NCBI GenBank assembly: GCA_016190925.1
Contig: JACPPQ010000152.1
Coordinates: 1 to 40,620 of the forward strand
Origin: Chloroflexota bacterium
GTDB taxonomy: Bacteria; Chloroflexota; Dehalococcoidia; Dehalococcoidales; JACPPQ01
Direction of reading: 5' to 3'
DNA: 40,620 nt
Part shown: piece by piece, positions 7,757 to 25,063 of the stretch
How the letters are laid out: each line of letters starts with the position of its first letter
Numbering within the stretch: position 1 is the stretch's first letter
The notes under the pieces: generated by a model
Told to the model about the DNA's origin: nothing
Database searches by the model: none
Seen by the model: only the letters and a program-made list of their open reading frames with translations
Made by a program: the position numbers and the translations under genes

Positions 7757-8668
7757 CTACTCAAGTGCAATCGTCCCGCTTTTTCCGCCGCTCTTTCTGG
7801 ACAGGCGAATTTCTTCGAGCCTCATACCCCGGTCGACCGCCTTGCACATATCATAGATGGTCAGTCCCGCAATGGCAACTGCGGTTAGCGCTTCCATTTC
7901 AACCCCGGTCTTGCCCGTGCTTTTCACCGCAGCAACAATTTCCACGGCGCTGTCAGCCTTATGCAAGACAAAATCGACCTTGGCCTCGGAGATTTGGATA
8001 GGGTGGCACAGAGGAATCAGAAAGGGTGTCTGCTTGGCCGCCATGATTCCGGCAATCCGGGCTACGGCGAGAACGTCCCCTTTGGGCATCCCCCCTTTGC
8101 TTATCATCTCGAAGGTCGAAGGCTGCATCCTGACCAGACCTTTTGCAACCGCTTCCCGCAGAGTGTCCGGCTTTTCTCCGATGTCCACCATGCGGGCACG
8201 GCCTGCCTCGTCCAGGTGGGTCAATTCCTTCTTCACCGGAACCCCGGACGTTTCCTTCTCCGCCGAGGGCGCAACCGCAGCAGCTTCAACTCGACCTGCC
8301 AATCCAAAAGCCAGCTCATGCGCATCCTTGTGAAAGGGACTGGTATTGCGGTAAGCCCACTCCCACCTGACCTTACGCTGTTTAACGGCCTGGTCAAGCT
8401 TCTCCCACAGGTCGACATTGGCTTTCCTCTGCCATCCCTGGGTCATACAGCCGAAGAGATACTGGCTGTCAGTGTGAACAACGACCTCCGAGTTTTGTGG
8501 AGTCTTGAGGATGCCTTCGAGGGCGGCGGTGATTTCCATGCGGTTGCTGGTGGTGTTTTTGGCGGTGCCGGAAAAGAGGTTTTTTTTACCGTCCTCAACG
8601 ATAACAACGCCCCAGCCACCCTGCCCCAGCCCCGGGTTATAGGCGCCGTCAGTATAGAGCTCAATCAA
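7757..8668 (-). CDS. moaC: Ribonuclease H / MoaC fusion protein
   Basis: Two domains are joined in one frame. Residues 1-125 are RNase HI-like: YTDGAYNPG (Asp7), MEITAALEG (Glu45) and HTDSQYLFG (Asp67) give three catalytic carboxylates. The usual GHxGH loop is absent and the fourth position reads DAHELA, placing His where most enzymes have Asp. Residues about 148-303 are MoaC, cyclic pyranopterin monophosphate synthase, the second step of molybdenum-cofactor synthesis: [29 protein letters not shown] and [12 protein letters not shown] are intact. The TTG at 8668 lies 2 nt after the moaA stop and follows AGGTAGGGGG; the longer frame from 8746 would overlap moaA by 76 nt. Translational coupling with moaA is likely. 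Confidence 0.88.
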
Positions 8669-8670
8669 GT

Positions 8671-9654
8671 CTATCCCCCTACCTGAGAGAACGGGCGGTC
8701 TTTGGGCACTCGACCTTCTGACAGATGATGTTGGAGAGGCTTGCAAGCAGCAGCTTTTTCGATAAGGAGCTTCAACTCCTCCGATGATATGCCGCTGCGC
8801 AGGGGTTTTCGCAGGTCTATCTCATTCTCGGACAGCAGGCATGGCCGCAGTTTGCCATCGGAGGTAAGCCGCAGACGGTTGCACTGGAAGCAGAAATGTT
8901 CGGTGACCGGCGTAATGAAGCCCACTGTGCCCTTCGCGCCGGGAAAGCGGAAGTACTTCGCCGGGCCATTGCCGACCCCAGCCTGGCAGGGTTCAAGCTG
9001 CCCCAATGTTTCGATATTCTTCCTCATATCGTTCACGGACACAAAAGATGCAGCACTCGCACCGTCACCGAAGGGCATATGTTCGATAAACCGGATATGC
9101 CATTCATCGTCAATGGTTTTGGCGGCAAAATCGATAAGCTCATCATCGTTCATGCCAGCCATGACCACCACGTTAATCTTTACAGGTTTAAGCCCGGCGG
9201 ACTTCGCTGCCTTAATACCTTCCAGGACATCGGCAACACCGTATGCGCCACGCGTAATGGACCTGAAGCGTTCATCTTTGAGAGTGTCCAGGCTGACATT
9301 CACTCGACGCAAACCGGCCGATTTCAGCTCGGTGGCATAGCGGGCAAGGAGTATGCCATTGGTGGTCATGGAAATGTCATCGATTGCCTCTATGCCTGCC
9401 AGCATGCGGACCAGTTCCGGCAGTCCCAGTCGTACCAGGGGTTCGCCGCCGGTGAGCCTGACCTTGTTTATGCCTGCTGCTGCGGCCGCTTTAGCTACGG
9501 TATAAATCTCCTCGTAGGTGAGGATGTCCGCATGGGGCATGGGATGGATGCCATCGAGGGGCATACAGTAGGCGCAGCGCAGGTTACAGCGGTCGGTCAC
9601 GGAGATACGCAGGTAGTTGATGGGACGCTGGAAAGAGTCAGAAAGTCCGGTCAT
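8671..9654 (-). CDS. moaA: GTP 3',8-cyclase, radical SAM enzyme
   Basis: MoaA converts GTP to the cyclic precursor that MoaC turns into cPMP. The 327-residue protein has the radical-SAM cluster motif Cys23-x3-Cys27-x2-Cys30 (CNLRCAYC), the SAM-binding GGEPLVR segment, and the second MoaA-specific cluster ligands Cys255, Cys258 and Cys272. The C-terminus ends in Gly-Gly, which is needed for activity in MoaA. Its ATG overlaps the rdgB stop in an ATGA junction, and its stop is 2 nt before the RNase H/MoaC start, so all three are in one operon. Confidence 0.96.
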
Positions 9655-13255: not shown

Positions 13256-15919
13256 CTATTTCTTCAACAGCTTGAGGAAGGTGGTGTCTCTACCAAATAT
13301 CAAAGCCAGCAGCCAGTCCTGGACTATCCTGATGCGGTTATAGTTGCCGGTGACCAGTAAAAGGTAAGCGCCGACCCACACCAGCCGCGCCAGAAAACCG
13401 TATAGCCGCAGGCCGTGAAAGCGGAGCATAGCCCTGGAAGCACCCAGAGAGATAATCTCCGCTGTATTGGAATAGTGATAACTCCTCTTATCCCTGCCCC
13501 GGATTTCCGCAAGGATGTTGTGGGCAACCACTTTGGCCTGGCGCACTGCTATGTGTGCCCGTGGTGGCACAGGCCTGCCTGAGTCCGGCGTTTTAAAATG
13601 GGCGCAATCACCAACGGCATACACCCCGGGAACCCCGGGCACCTCCATGTGCTTGTTAACTACAACCCGGCCAATGTTATCCCTGTTCACAGGAAGAGCT
13701 GCTATCTGTGGATTAGCCACCACCCCGGTTACCCAGATAAGGGTGCCGGCCGGAATGATTTCGTTGCCGTTGAGCTCGACGCGGTCATGCCAGACCCGTG
13801 TAATCTGCGACCTCAACCTCACCTCAATCCCCATGCGCTGAAGCGACCTCATGGCATAGGCGCCGAGACTGGTGTGCAATTCAGCCATAATCTTGGATTC
13901 AGCTTCAACCAGAACAATTCGCACATTATCGGGGGCTATTGCCCTGTGAAACTTTATCAGGCTCCTGTGGATGAAGTCCCTCAGTTCGGTCACCAGCTGG
14001 ATGCCGGTATAGCCAGCACCGGAGATAATGAAAGTGACCAGTTGCCTCTGCCGTTCGGGGTTTTTCTCCATGCTGGCCTGTTCGAATACCTCGATGATAT
14101 GGTTTCTGAGCACCATCGAGTCGTAGATGGTTTTCAAAGTGAAGATGTTTCCGCCATCCTTTTGCACGGCATCCAGGTGCCGCGTATCAGCTACACTGCC
14201 CAGCGCCATGACCAGATAATCGAAGTCAAAGGTGCCACCGCTGGTGGTTACTTTTCGCTCTTTAAGGTCTATTTGTTGAACAGTTGCTTGCACAAAATTA
14301 AATCTGTCCCTCCAGTTCAGCCTCCTGATAGGATAGGCTACGTGCCGCGTCTCTATCACTCCCATGGCAACCTCATGTAAAAGGGGGGAAAAGAGAAAGA
14401 AGTTTTCATCACTTATCATGGTGGTTTCGACATTCTCATTACGATTTAGAGAGGGGACCAGTCGCCGCAGCACATAGGTCCCGCCAAACCCGCTGCCCAG
14501 TATCAGGACCTTCCTTCCACCCACATGAAGACGTTTTGGTCTCGTAGTCTCTTCTTTGCGAAACAGGCCTCTCAAACCTTCCGTAGCCAGCGCCATAGCA
14601 AGCCTGCTCAGAGAAAGCGGGTTAAGGGCCATCCATGCCATGCTCCTGTACCTGTAGTTGCCGGTGAGCATGCCCCACACCGCTCTGGTGAAAGGCTGCG
14701 GACCTCGCGCATTGTTCTGCTCGTCACCAATAAGACGGTGTTGTGCCAGAAAGAAGTTGCGGGAATTTTTGGCCTTATCATTTATGCCGAACAATATCCG
14801 CCCCCACCGGTTATCCCGCTCGATACTGTTGCAAAACGGCTTATAATGATGCTCGAAATCCTGGCGGGATATGCCGTGGGAGACTGCCGTGCGGGCAGCC
14901 TGGCGGGCGGTCAACAGGGAGGAGCCGATGCCATCCTTATACAACCTGGTGACTGCGGCATCGCCGACAGCGACAAAGCGGTCTGCGTAGTAGTTGCGAG
15001 CAGCGCTAACCGCCGCCCTGGAGCGGCAGCCGCAGACACGCTCATAGCGCTCCGGCAGCATGCTCTTGACGATATCCTGGTTTAAGAAGTCCATAACAGA
15101 GACGGGACGTTCCTTTCCGCTGCTGAGTACCGAAACGCTCATAAAGGGTCCCTTGGGTACCAGCGTGCCGAAAACCATTCCCGAATGGGGAAGAAAAAAG
15201 GCATGCGCCGAGTTACCCAGGAGCGCCTGCACCTCGGCGGTCCCGACATAAAGCTCATCCTGGGCCAGCGCCTGCGTTCGCGGAGGAACATAATTGACCC
15301 CATCGACCTGGACAGGCTTGGAATTTACCCCCGATGCCAGCACCACCAGGTCGTGCTCAAGCTTTTGGCCTTCAACCTCTATCGCCGCCTCTTCGCCACC
15401 AAAGACACGGGATACCATCTTACCTTCCACCCTTGCTCCGCGTTTCTCGGCCTCACCCAGAAGCCAGCCGTCGAAGCTAACAGGTTTGTCATAGTGTGAT
15501 ATCCGAGGACCGCAGCCACGATAGACGCTGGCAATAGTGAGACCTTTCTCAGGATTATTGATGCTGATTGAGATGTAGGGGCTGTGGACGGCATAGTTTT
15601 CCACTTTGCTCTGGATTATCTCCTCAGGCACTTTCAGGCCAAGCTCACCCAGGTTACGAAGCAGAGACATGGAGAGGATTCCGGCGCAGCCCTTGCATCC
15701 CTTTGGGCCAAGTTCGCAGAAATTGCGCTGCTGGTAGATGGTGATGTCCGGCCGGATACCTCTTTCGGCGGCGTAGCGGAGGAGGTAGAGCGCAAAAAAG
15801 CTTCCCGCAGGGCCGCCGCCAATGATGGCAACCTTCGAGCCGTTTCCCAGTTTAGTCATATTTTTGTCCATGTCTAATTCACGAAACGCATATGCTCCAA
15901 TATTATCATAGTAGCTCAT
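13256..15919 (-). CDS. Two-flavoprotein fusion: geranylgeranyl-reductase-like plus NDH-2-like
   Basis: One 887-residue frame joins two complete FAD enzymes. Residues about 28-400 carry an FAD fold with VAIIGGGPAGS (34-39), a Cys cluster (68, 75, 78 in ELGPKGCKGCAG context) and DRFVAVGDAAVTRLYKDGIGSS at 314-334, as in geranylgeranyl reductases. Residues about 470-887 resemble type-2 NADH dehydrogenase: VLILGSGFGG (475-480), FLFSPLLHEVAMG, a second nucleotide fold FIISGAGYTGIQL (634-639), GVYAVGDCAHF, and a hydrophobic C-terminal anchor (LARLVWVGAYLLLVTGN). A tandem AATGAGCTAC duplication overlaps the start, and no strong ribosome binding site is seen; ATG 15871 is an alternative. The gene follows a UbiE-like methyltransferase on the same strand, suggesting a role with membrane isoprenoids or quinones. 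Confidence 0.85.
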   Translation of the reverse strand: MSYYDNIGAYAFRELDMDKNMTKLGNGSKVAIIGGGPAGSFFALYLLRYAAERGIRPDITIYQQRNFCELGPKGCKGCAGILSMSLLRNLGELGLKVPEEIIQSKVENYAVHSPYISISINNPEKGLTIASVYRGCGPRISHYDKPVSFDGWLLGEAEKRGARVEGKMVSRVFGGEEAAIEVEGQKLEHDLVVLASGVNSKPVQVDGVNYVPPRTQALAQDELYVGTAEVQALLGNSAHAFFLPHSGMVFGTLVPKGPFMSVSVLSSGKERPVSVMDFLNQDIVKSMLPERYERVCGCRSRAAVSAARNYYADRFVAVGDAAVTRLYKDGIGSSLLTARQAARTAVSHGISRQDFEHHYKPFCNSIERDNRWGRILFGINDKAKNSRNFFLAQHRLIGDEQNNARGPQPFTRAVWGMLTGNYRYRSMAWMALNPLSLSRLAMALATEGLRGLFRKEETTRPKRLHVGGRKVLILGSGFGGTYVLRRLVPSLNRNENVETTMISDENFFLFSPLLHEVAMGVIETRHVAYPIRRLNWRDRFNFVQATVQQIDLKERKVTTSGGTFDFDYLVMALGSVADTRHLDAVQKDGGNIFTLKTIYDSMVLRNHIIEVFEQASMEKNPERQRQLVTFIISGAGYTGIQLVTELRDFIHRSLIKFHRAIAPDNVRIVLVEAESKIMAELHTSLGAYAMRSLQRMGIEVRLRSQITRVWHDRVELNGNEIIPAGTLIWVTGVVANPQIAALPVNRDNIGRVVVNKHMEVPGVPGVYAVGDCAHFKTPDSGRPVPPRAHIAVRQAKVVAHNILAEIRGRDKRSYHYSNTAEIISLGASRAMLRFHGLRLYGFLARLVWVGAYLLLVTGNYNRIRIVQDWLLALIFGRDTTFLKLLKK

Positions 15920-16082: not shown

Positions 16083-16739
16083 TTACCGATGTCCGACTGC
16101 AATATAGACCATGCCGCCATATAGTTCGGTCACGGAAGTATTCGCTAAATAATTGCTTATGGACTCCCAGGGATGGCGGGATGCCAGTTCCATTGAAACT
16201 CCGAACGGACGCGTCAAGAAAACAAGCAACGGTGCGAGGTGAACAAACCGGTTGGAGGGCATCTTGAAGTCCGCTATTACCCACCGCTTCCCGGGAGCCA
16301 GGGAACGGGCACCACTCTTTATAATCTTGTCAAAATCAGGCGCAAGTGTGATAGCGAAGGTCGATAGTATGCCTCCCACCCCGTTCGGGAACTGGAATGA
16401 CGCCGCATCGCTTTGCACCAGCTCAACATTCGACCAACGGTTTTCCTCTACCCGCTTTCTGGCCTGTGACAGCATTGCATCTGTGATGTCCACTCCGATT
16501 ATTTTCCCGTTAGGGCCAACCGCCTGCTGAAGCAGCGGGAAGTTCCCGCCGGTGCCACACCCTATTTCCACCACCGTATCTCCGGGGTGCAGGTTCAATG
16601 CCAGAACAGCCTTTTCACGGTATGCCTGGAGTCTGAAACCAATCAGGTAGTACAGGTTTGCTGTAAAATTATATCGCCTGGCCCTTCTGCGGTAGAGGTG
16701 GATTACGCTTTCTTTCTCTACACGAAATGACTTGCTCAT
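16083..16739 (-). CDS. Class I SAM-dependent methyltransferase, UbiE-like
   Basis: The 218-residue protein has the SAM-binding motif VVEIGCGTGGNFPLL, an acidic residue after motif II (GKIIGVDITDAMLSQARKR), and a motif-IV region QSDAASFQFPNGVGGILSTFAITLAPDFDKII. RRRARRYNFTANLYYLIGF near the N-terminus resembles the RYD segment of UbiE/COQ5 quinone methyltransferases. GAGGTAGACA precedes ATG 16739. The flavoprotein fusion follows 163 nt downstream on the same strand, with no clear terminator between. The substrate is unknown; a quinone or prenyl lipid is an inference from the neighbour. Confidence 0.82.
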   Translation of the reverse strand: MSKSFRVEKESVIHLYRRRARRYNFTANLYYLIGFRLQAYREKAVLALNLHPGDTVVEIGCGTGGNFPLLQQAVGPNGKIIGVDITDAMLSQARKRVEENRWSNVELVQSDAASFQFPNGVGGILSTFAITLAPDFDKIIKSGARSLAPGKRWVIADFKMPSNRFVHLAPLLVFLTRPFGVSMELASRHPWESISNYLANTSVTELYGGMVYIAVGHR

Positions 16740-23122: not shown

Positions 23123-25063
23123 TTAAACAATCCTTCCTATCTCCGCCCCTTCGCGGATGGCATCCATGGCGTCCCTTGGCTCCGCGCAGTCGCCTATCCT
23201 GTATATCTCCGGGACAGTGCCTTTAAGCTGCTCGAAGAGCGCGTTCTCAGGTTTTGCGCCCACCGCCAGCACCACGGTGTCCGCCTTCAGAAAAGCAGTC
23301 TCTTGCTCGAAGTCGATGTACACGCCGGTTTCTCTTATCTCTCGCACACGCGCCTGGGTATATATGTAGACGCCGTCTTCAATTAGTCTGTCTCTCAAGG
23401 CAAGATATACCCAGTGGATGATGGCCTGTCCGCTCCCGTGCTGTCGCAGACCTGACCGGGCGACTATCGAGACCTTCTTTCCCTGTTCTGCCAGCAAGAT
23501 TGCTGCTTCCATTGCCCTGTATTTTCCCCCGACCACTACCACGGTCTTGCCCACTTTGGCCTTCCCCACGAAGACGTCCACTGCCTGCACCACGTTCTTG
23601 TTGTTTACGCCGGGCACGTCCAGGATGGCAGGCTTCGCGCCGGTAGCTACCACCACGGCATCCGGCTTATTTTCCGCTACAAACTGGCGCGTCACCGGCT
23701 TGTTGAGAATGACCTTTACACCGGCCTTCTCCAGGCTACGGCTCAAGTCCCTGGCCACGCTGGCAAAGGCTTCCTTTTGAGGCTCCAGCGACGCAATGTT
23801 CCACTGGCCGCCTAATTTGCTGTCGGCCTCATACAGGGAAACCTTGTGGCCCCGCTCTGCCAGGACTCTGGCAGCCTCCATGCCGGCAAGTCCGCCCCCT
23901 ATGACCATAATTCGCTTTGGGGAGGCCGCCGGTTTCAGGATAAACTCCTTCTCCCGCAGAACCGCGGGGTTAACGGTGCACGAGATGCCGCCATGCGCAG
24001 ATTTCATCGATTTTATCATGCAGCCCATGCAGTAAATGCAGCGCCGGATTTCATCGGTACGCCCTTCCCTGGCCTTGTTCGGTAGTTCGGGGTCGGTCAA
24101 AAAAGGCCTGCCCATTGCCACGAAGTCTGCTTTCCCTTCCCGCAAAATATTTTCCGCAAGGGCGAGGTCGCCTATCTTTCCCACTGCTATCACAGGAACG
24201 GTTGCGACCTTTCTTATCTCTTCTGCGAGGTGAACATTAAGTCCGTCAGGAAACAGATAGTTGGGGATACCCCACTTGTAGCTCTCCCACTGTCCGGCTG
24301 AGACGTGTAACGCGTCTGTTCCTGCTTTAACCAGAAGCGGAGCTACTTGTTTGCTGTCCTCGATGGTGATACCGCCATCGAGATAATCAGCGCCGCTCAG
24401 CCTGAAGCTGATAGGGAAGTCAGTGCCCACTTTCTGTCTTACTCTCTGGATAACCTCGCACGCAAACCTGGCTCTTTTCTCCACGGTCCCCCCGTATTCA
24501 TCCTGTCTTCTGTTATCCAGGGGAGACAGGAAGGATGAGATTAAGTCACCGTGGCAGCCGTGGATTTCAATAATGTCAAGTCCGGCATCCTTTAGCCTCC
24601 GGGCTCCCTCGGCGAAGGCTTCAACCACACGCTCGATGTCCTCTTTGGTCGCTTCCCTGGGGGCTTTTCCGCTGCCTACCCAGGGAATTGCGGATGGTCC
24701 CAAGGCTACTATATGGGGGTCGGTACTGCCGGTTAAGACTTTGCCTCCATGCTCCAGCTGCCAGCCAATCTTGGCCCCATGCCTGTGCACGGCGTCGGCC
24801 AGTCTTCTGAGAGGAGCGATAAACTTGTCATCATATATCGCGGGAATTGTTGAGCGGGAACTCTCTTTCAGGATAGAGGCTGTTTGTCCCAATATTAGTC
24901 CCACTCCTCCCTTCGCTCTTTCAACATAATAATCTATCATTCGGTCGTTTATGCTGCCGTCTTCATTGTGAGCGTGAGTGCCCATTGGAGCCATTAGCAG
25001 CCTGTTTCTGATTTCTACTTTGCCTATTCTGCCCGGTTGAAACAATTTCACAAATTGCCCCAC
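23123..25063 (-). CDS. Old-yellow-enzyme/2,4-dienoyl-CoA reductase type flavo-FeS enzyme
   Basis: The 646-residue protein has the FadH-like three-part layout. Residues 1-350 form the FMN barrel (KLFQPGRIGKVEIRNRLLMAPMGT, EIHGCHGDLISSFLSPLDNRR with the His-x-x-His pair, ADFVAMGRPFLTDPELPNK). A cysteine cluster RRCIYCMGC with a later Cys holds a 4Fe-4S centre; the spacing Cys-x2-Cys-x2-Cys is one residue shorter than in E. coli FadH. Then come an FAD fold (RIMVIGGGLAGMEAARVLAERG) and an NAD(P)H fold (TVVVVGGKYRAMEAAILL). Such enzymes reduce C=C bonds of enones or dienoyl-CoAs. GTG 25063 follows AGGAGATTTCAG. It lies 90 nt after dctM on the same strand, so it probably acts on what the TRAP system imports. 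Confidence 0.9.
   Translation of the reverse strand: MGQFVKLFQPGRIGKVEIRNRLLMAPMGTHAHNEDGSINDRMIDYYVERAKGGVGLILGQTASILKESSRSTIPAIYDDKFIAPLRRLADAVHRHGAKIGWQLEHGGKVLTGSTDPHIVALGPSAIPWVGSGKAPREATKEDIERVVEAFAEGARRLKDAGLDIIEIHGCHGDLISSFLSPLDNRRQDEYGGTVEKRARFACEVIQRVRQKVGTDFPISFRLSGADYLDGGITIEDSKQVAPLLVKAGTDALHVSAGQWESYKWGIPNYLFPDGLNVHLAEEIRKVATVPVIAVGKIGDLALAENILREGKADFVAMGRPFLTDPELPNKAREGRTDEIRRCIYCMGCMIKSMKSAHGGISCTVNPAVLREKEFILKPAASPKRIMVIGGGLAGMEAARVLAERGHKVSLYEADSKLGGQWNIASLEPQKEAFASVARDLSRSLEKAGVKVILNKPVTRQFVAENKPDAVVVATGAKPAILDVPGVNNKNVVQAVDVFVGKAKVGKTVVVVGGKYRAMEAAILLAEQGKKVSIVARSGLRQHGSGQAIIHWVYLALRDRLIEDGVYIYTQARVREIRETGVYIDFEQETAFLKADTVVLAVGAKPENALFEQLKGTVPEIYRIGDCAEPRDAMDAIREGAEIGRIV

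Follow-up and report, generated by a model that had tools for sequence, protein, structure and literature searches.

The stretch of DNA analysed here (the window, 40,620 nucleotides of a Chloroflexota contig) carries at 13256-15919 an open reading frame of 887 codons with zero internal stops, which lies on the minus strand, a correction to the earlier record. The preliminary description of this locus proposed that two complete flavoenzyme modules, one resembling geranylgeranyl reductases (GGRs) and the other NDH-2, are joined in this one chain, and this is confirmed by the open frame, by the domain matches and by the 27 fused sequences described below. Pfam and NCBIfam assign residues 470-795 of the window protein to Pyr_redox_2 and residues 30-344 to the GGR superfamily, and show a trace of NDH2_C at 824-878; residues ~28-450 form the GGR-superfamily FAD domain and residues 469-878 the NDH-2-like one. 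The features of the protein are the following:

13256..15919, minus strand: putative two-flavin fusion protein of 887 aa (open frame; 25 fused sequences align end to end)
14555..15919, minus strand: N-terminal GGR-superfamily-like FAD module, residues 1-455, with a core at ~28-345 and a helical tail to ~453 (TIGR02032 match, AF2, fold)
15686..15697, minus strand: CxxC (C75, C78), aligning with the catalytic-Cys segment of GGRs (alignment)
15155..15172, minus strand: FGTLVP (250-255), equivalent of the GGR motif YxWxFP with the Trp replaced (alignment with GGRs)
15026..15034, minus strand: CxC (C296, C298), conserved across the N-half family (alignment)
14519..14560, minus strand: inter-module linker, ~residues 454-467 (low pLDDT; varies among homologues)
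13256..14554, minus strand: C-terminal NDH-2-like FAD/NADH module, residues 456-887 (Pyr_redox_2 E 4e-45; 4nwz profile; fold)
13997..14020, minus strand: second Rossmann motif GAGYTGIQ, with Q641 in place of NDH-2 E172 (alignment; PMC5299459)
13538..13558, minus strand: AHIAVRQ (788-794) in place of the NDH-2 quinone motif AQxAxQ (alignment; PMC5299459)
13286..13450, minus strand: NDH2_C-like C-terminal segment, residues 824-878, with probable membrane-associating helices (20.7 bits, cutoff 27.7; helices predicted at 842-855 and 859-875)

Given that homologues begin near residue 17-21 of the window protein in the end-to-end alignment, translation may in fact begin at an internal ATG and leave the first residues untranslated. 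The AF2 model of the full-length protein has a pLDDT of 83.9 and a pTM of 0.64, and does not fix the mutual placement of the halves.

The search for homologues covered 60 relatives and, at the level of order, class and phylum, 156, 393 and 400 genomes, respectively, together with a scan of genome contigs; outside Chloroflexota, the coverage consisted of one pattern scan of genome contigs and of a plasmid collection. The fusion was found in 26 further sequences (27 with the window), with 44-68% identity to the window protein over the aligned set, and 25 of the 27 could be aligned end to end. Nearly all of them belong to the same Chloroflexota order or class, where they are spread over many families, and one comes from a different Chloroflexota class (G656, L145). 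A contig labelled as Acidobacteria (L019) also carries the fusion, and since this copy is nested inside the clade of the order on the tree, the label is doubtful and the contig is probably mis-assigned. The plasmid collection gave by tblastn half-matches only and no full fusion, and no description of this fusion was found in the literature searched.

It is clear that the fusion is genuine and conserved, and that it joins two known families. The assembly is a draft of metagenome type in 178 contigs, in which two genes could have been joined by an assembly artefact or by a stop missed at 14500-14620; nonetheless, the same architecture and continuous frame occur in 26 sequences from other assemblies, which excludes this explanation without recourse to reads and leaves it with practically no probability. 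In five genomes (G193, G200, G192, G164, and G199) the halves are encoded by two adjacent genes in the same order, and the two called ORFs overlap in G200 and G164. Separate genes in relatives had been considered as an observation that would speak against the fusion; these do occur, but they are adjacent and are expected around a genuine fusion, and the fusion therefore stands. In the tree of the N-half, five changes of the fused state are required and the split copies branch from within the fused ones, a pattern that agrees with a single fusion or a few, followed by fissions. The adjacent split genes in the five relatives also support a functional link between the halves.

NDH-2 is usually regarded as a respiratory quinone reductase. 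The C-half of the window protein has a profile match to the NDH-2 of Caldalkalibacillus (4nwz) with an E-value of 6.6e-73, a fold match to NDH-2 with a TM of 0.91 by target length, and two dinucleotide-binding motifs, GSGFGG and GAGYTG, for FAD and NADH, respectively. Its C-terminal helices are predicted at 842-855 and 859-875, and NDH2_C (PF22366) scores 20.7 bits versus a cutoff of 27.7. The proposal of an NDH-2-like half with a NADH motif and C-terminal helices is upheld. The sequence matches of the window protein in the PDB are confined to this half, with NDH-2s ranking first. When compared with NDH-2 (PDB 4nwz and 5na1), the module is alike in its fold, in the two Rossmann motifs, in the predicted C-terminal helices and in the LHE pair near the flavin, and unlike it in having Gln for E172, AHxAVRQ for AQxAxQ, and a second flavoenzyme at the N-terminus.

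In a survey of 1762 NDH-2s, the proton-relay residue Glu172 was present in 97% and replaced by Gln in the rest, while the quinone motifs AQxAxQ (62%), AQxAxR (15%), and APxAxQ (10%) together covered ~87% of the sequences (PMC5299459). Thirty-five NDH-2-like proteins that are partnered with the N-half family, i.e., fused to it, adjacent to it, or (in three cases) encoded near it, were compared with 17 unpartnered NDH-2 homologues from Chloroflexota. Gln occupies the position of E172 in all 35 partnered copies and Glu in all 17 unpartnered ones, and the AH-type quinone motif (AHxxVRQ) is found in 35/35 versus 0/17. The partnered set forms a single branch of the C-half tree, with a support of 100/99. 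The separate NDH-2 paralogue of the same genome (L080) has kept the Glu and has the motif GQVAVRQ. The altered residues of the quinone site are the strongest clue that the acceptor of the partnered module may have changed.

The N-half was modelled by AF2 with a pLDDT of 91.6. TIGR02032 is matched by all 35 N-half homologues scanned (best E 1e-14), the window protein itself scoring 37-40 bits, below the curated cutoff of 158.8. The alignment by hhalign of the N-half profile with 17 GGR-family proteins of the order has a probability of 99.6 and an E-value of 3e-24 over 302 columns. The fold matches in the PDB are led by the GGR of S. acidocaldarius (4opt), with FixC (7koe_C) second, followed by halogenases and KMO, whereas a library of viral folds was uninformative; given that TM is about 0.6, the N-half is a distinct and divergent member of the GGR superfamily. 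Cys47 of the S. acidocaldarius enzyme is the active-site cysteine, and the catalytic-Cys segment of GGRs aligns with GCxxCAG of the N-half, where the equivalence to C75 or C78 is ambiguous. The cysteines C75, C78, C296, and C298 are present in every sequence of the 35-member alignment and in nearly all of the wider N-half family. The substrate motif YxWxFP reads FGTLVP, and its Trp, which is retained by the true GGRs of the same order, is absent from every N-half. In relation to the GGR superfamily (TIGR02032; S. acidocaldarius 3atq/4opt; MenJ, ChlP/BchP), the likeness therefore lies in the nearly full-length profile match, the FAD fold, the Cys at the catalytic segment and the Pro of the substrate motif, and the difference in the low score, the lost Trp, the additional CxxC/CxC set, the long helical tail and the NADH module that the fusion protein brings with it.

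It had been noted that the first half looks like an isoprenoid reductase. Membership of the GGR superfamily is sustained by the hhalign result, but since the assignment is made at the level of the superfamily and the Trp of the substrate motif is missing, this enzymatic label is suggested rather than established. The genome of the window has a separate true GGR (195 bits). As a gauge of redundancy, a true GGR above the cutoff is present in 114 of the 156 genomes of the order; three fusion-positive genomes (G003, G011, and G090), which are incomplete, have no true GGR match at E 1e-35. The physiological electron donor is uncertain for many enzymes of the GGR superfamily. The motifs tested revealed no second NAD-binding Rossmann domain or NAD(P)H site in the N-half, and for this reason it probably needs an outside reductant, by analogy with GGRs.

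These properties point to a NADH-dependent oxidoreductase, peripheral to the membrane, in which electrons would pass from the C-terminal flavin to the FAD of the N-half and from there to a hydrophobic substrate borne by the membrane, a reading to which we give roughly even chances. Hydride from NADH would enter at the FAD of the NDH-2-like half, given that only this half has a NADH-binding Rossmann domain. The electrons would then move to the FAD of the GGR-like half, instead of or besides a quinone at the canonical site. Transfer between two bound flavins is the most economical reading of halves that are fused or adjacent and of a quinone site that is altered, and may be judged as probable as not. 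The N-half flavin would finally reduce its substrate, for which the most plausible target is a C=C bond in an isoprenoid, a quinone or a related lipid; by homology, the isoprenoids or quinones of the membrane are the default substrate class. The preliminary description had traced the electrons from NADH through the C-terminal flavin to the reduction of a side chain. The passage from flavin to flavin has become more plausible with the clade-specific loss of the quinone-site residues, but the substrate is a guess, and so is the reduction of a prenyl or quinone side chain. A self-sufficient enzyme that uses NADH to reduce prenyl or quinone side chains, in which the acceptor site of NDH-2 was re-tooled and the GGR-like half works without an external donor, is a tentative and rather doubtful proposal. 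Against the flavin-to-flavin reading count the score of the N-half (40 versus 158.8 bits), the loss of the Trp, the separate true GGR in the genome, the AF2 model, which does not fix the placement of the halves and hence the distance between the flavins, and the occurrence of the E-to-Q replacement in ~3% of published NDH-2s. If the proposal of a self-sufficient reductase holds, the fused NDH-2 module would replace the external donor otherwise needed by GGRs in Chloroflexota of the Dehalococcoidales type, and if the NDH-2 half has lost the canonical quinone-site residues, the fusion would illustrate how an NDH-2 can be co-opted to serve a different enzyme as its reductase module. The fusion is also a testable handle on the lipid and quinone chemistry of largely uncultured Chloroflexota.

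Electrons could also flow in the reverse direction, with the GGR-like half oxidizing a reduced carrier or a lipid and the NDH-2-like half passing the electrons to a quinone or to NAD+. The model for this is FixC/ETF-quinone oxidoreductase, which oxidizes a reduced carrier, and the second place of FixC among the fold matches, weak matches to FixC models, and the NDH-2 fold and C-terminal helices kept by the C-half all agree with it. Nonetheless, FixC is the weaker match in sequence, the profile match to true GGRs extends over nearly the full length of the N-half, the quinone site no longer has its canonical residues, and the clustering of neighbours, not all of which are annotated, identified no etf or ferredoxin gene recurring beside the fusions, which makes this direction unlikely. 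It is similarly improbable that the fusion is a scaffold for independent halves, with the C-half acting as a NADH:quinone oxidoreductase with an unusual quinone site and the N-half being fed by another donor: the N-half family also has members that stand by themselves, carry a cNMP-binding domain or adjoin a GGR-like paralogue, and Arg at the last motif position (15%) and the E-to-Q replacement (3%) are known among NDH-2s (PMC5299459), but the change of the quinone site is uniform and confined to the clade partnered with the N-half (AH 35/35 versus 0/17). A monooxygenase of PHBH type or a halogenase fed by the NADH module is very unlikely, since the fold, although common to halogenases, KMO and squalene epoxidase, comes here without the DG-motif Asp of hydroxylases, with GGR as the top curated-family and fold match, and in an order with probable obligate anaerobes (Dehalococcoides-like genomes).

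The neighbourhood of the gene points to no particular substrate, which counts against the preferred flavin-to-flavin reading. Clustering of the neighbours revealed no gene family recurring beside the fusion. The methyltransferase at 16083-16739 (minus strand), which had been put forward as UbiE-like and as a clue to the pathway, is a generic class I enzyme that scores 64 bits versus the UbiE cutoff of 216 and lies far below every UbiE/MenG cutoff; its best match is an arsenite methyltransferase, likewise below cutoff. Given that it belongs to no conserved cluster and that its adjacency to the fusion is not conserved, this clue was abandoned. Two other genes of the window look composite. The one at 7757-8746 (minus strand) may be a fusion of RNase H with MoaC, given its matches to RNase HI at residues 27-131 (below cutoff) and to MoaC at 172-325, and that at 23123-25063 (minus strand) combines an FMN domain of old-yellow-enzyme type with Pyr_redox_2, a second two-flavin architecture of the familiar enoate-reductase type.

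As a quinone marker, UbiA (PF01040) was uninformative, being present in 134 of the 156 genomes. A protein of ~510 aa with a MenA-like C-terminal part, and an N-terminal part that is PNPOx-like by eye, is found in full length in 7/14 fusion-positive genomes versus 2/142 of the remaining genomes in the order (Fisher p 3e-7; p about 0.006 when permuted within families, with family sizes counted by hand). The genome of the window has a copy of this prenyltransferase fusion on contig C151 (L151:7143-8681, plus strand), and in G003 it is adjoined by a genuine MenG (215 bits versus 158). The association counts in favour of the preferred reading and suggests a link to menaquinone-making lineages, but half of the fusion-positive genomes are without the protein, and it may instead track a respiratory lifestyle. 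The order includes closed genomes of 1.4-2.1 Mb with 19-50 reductive-dehalogenase matches each, from which it is probably Dehalococcoidales, in the class Dehalococcoidia.

Elsewhere in Chloroflexota, relatives of the N-half either stand by themselves or have another partner, be it a cNMP-binding domain, an adjacent GGR-like paralogue or a fused NmrA/DUF2867 module. This unnamed GGR-like family shares with the fusion protein the N-half and its CxxC/CxC set and differs in the partner, which is the cNMP-binding domain, the GGR-like paralogue or the NmrA/DUF2867 module. Two loci (L064:5309-10284 and L065:6386-11010) contain a cluster of an MBL-fold protein, a GGR-like/cNMP protein, a K+ channel with TrkA domains and an NDH-2-like protein; the last of these shows the same AH/Gln signature in L064, and G141 holds two copies of the cluster. 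GGR-like genes are found as tandem pairs in L136, L138, L141, L142, and L143, where one member mostly has the CxxC/CxC set and its partner is without it. At L140:1155-4019 (plus strand), a protein of 955 aa joins an NmrA-like/DUF2867 module to one that is GGR-like and belongs to the N-half family.
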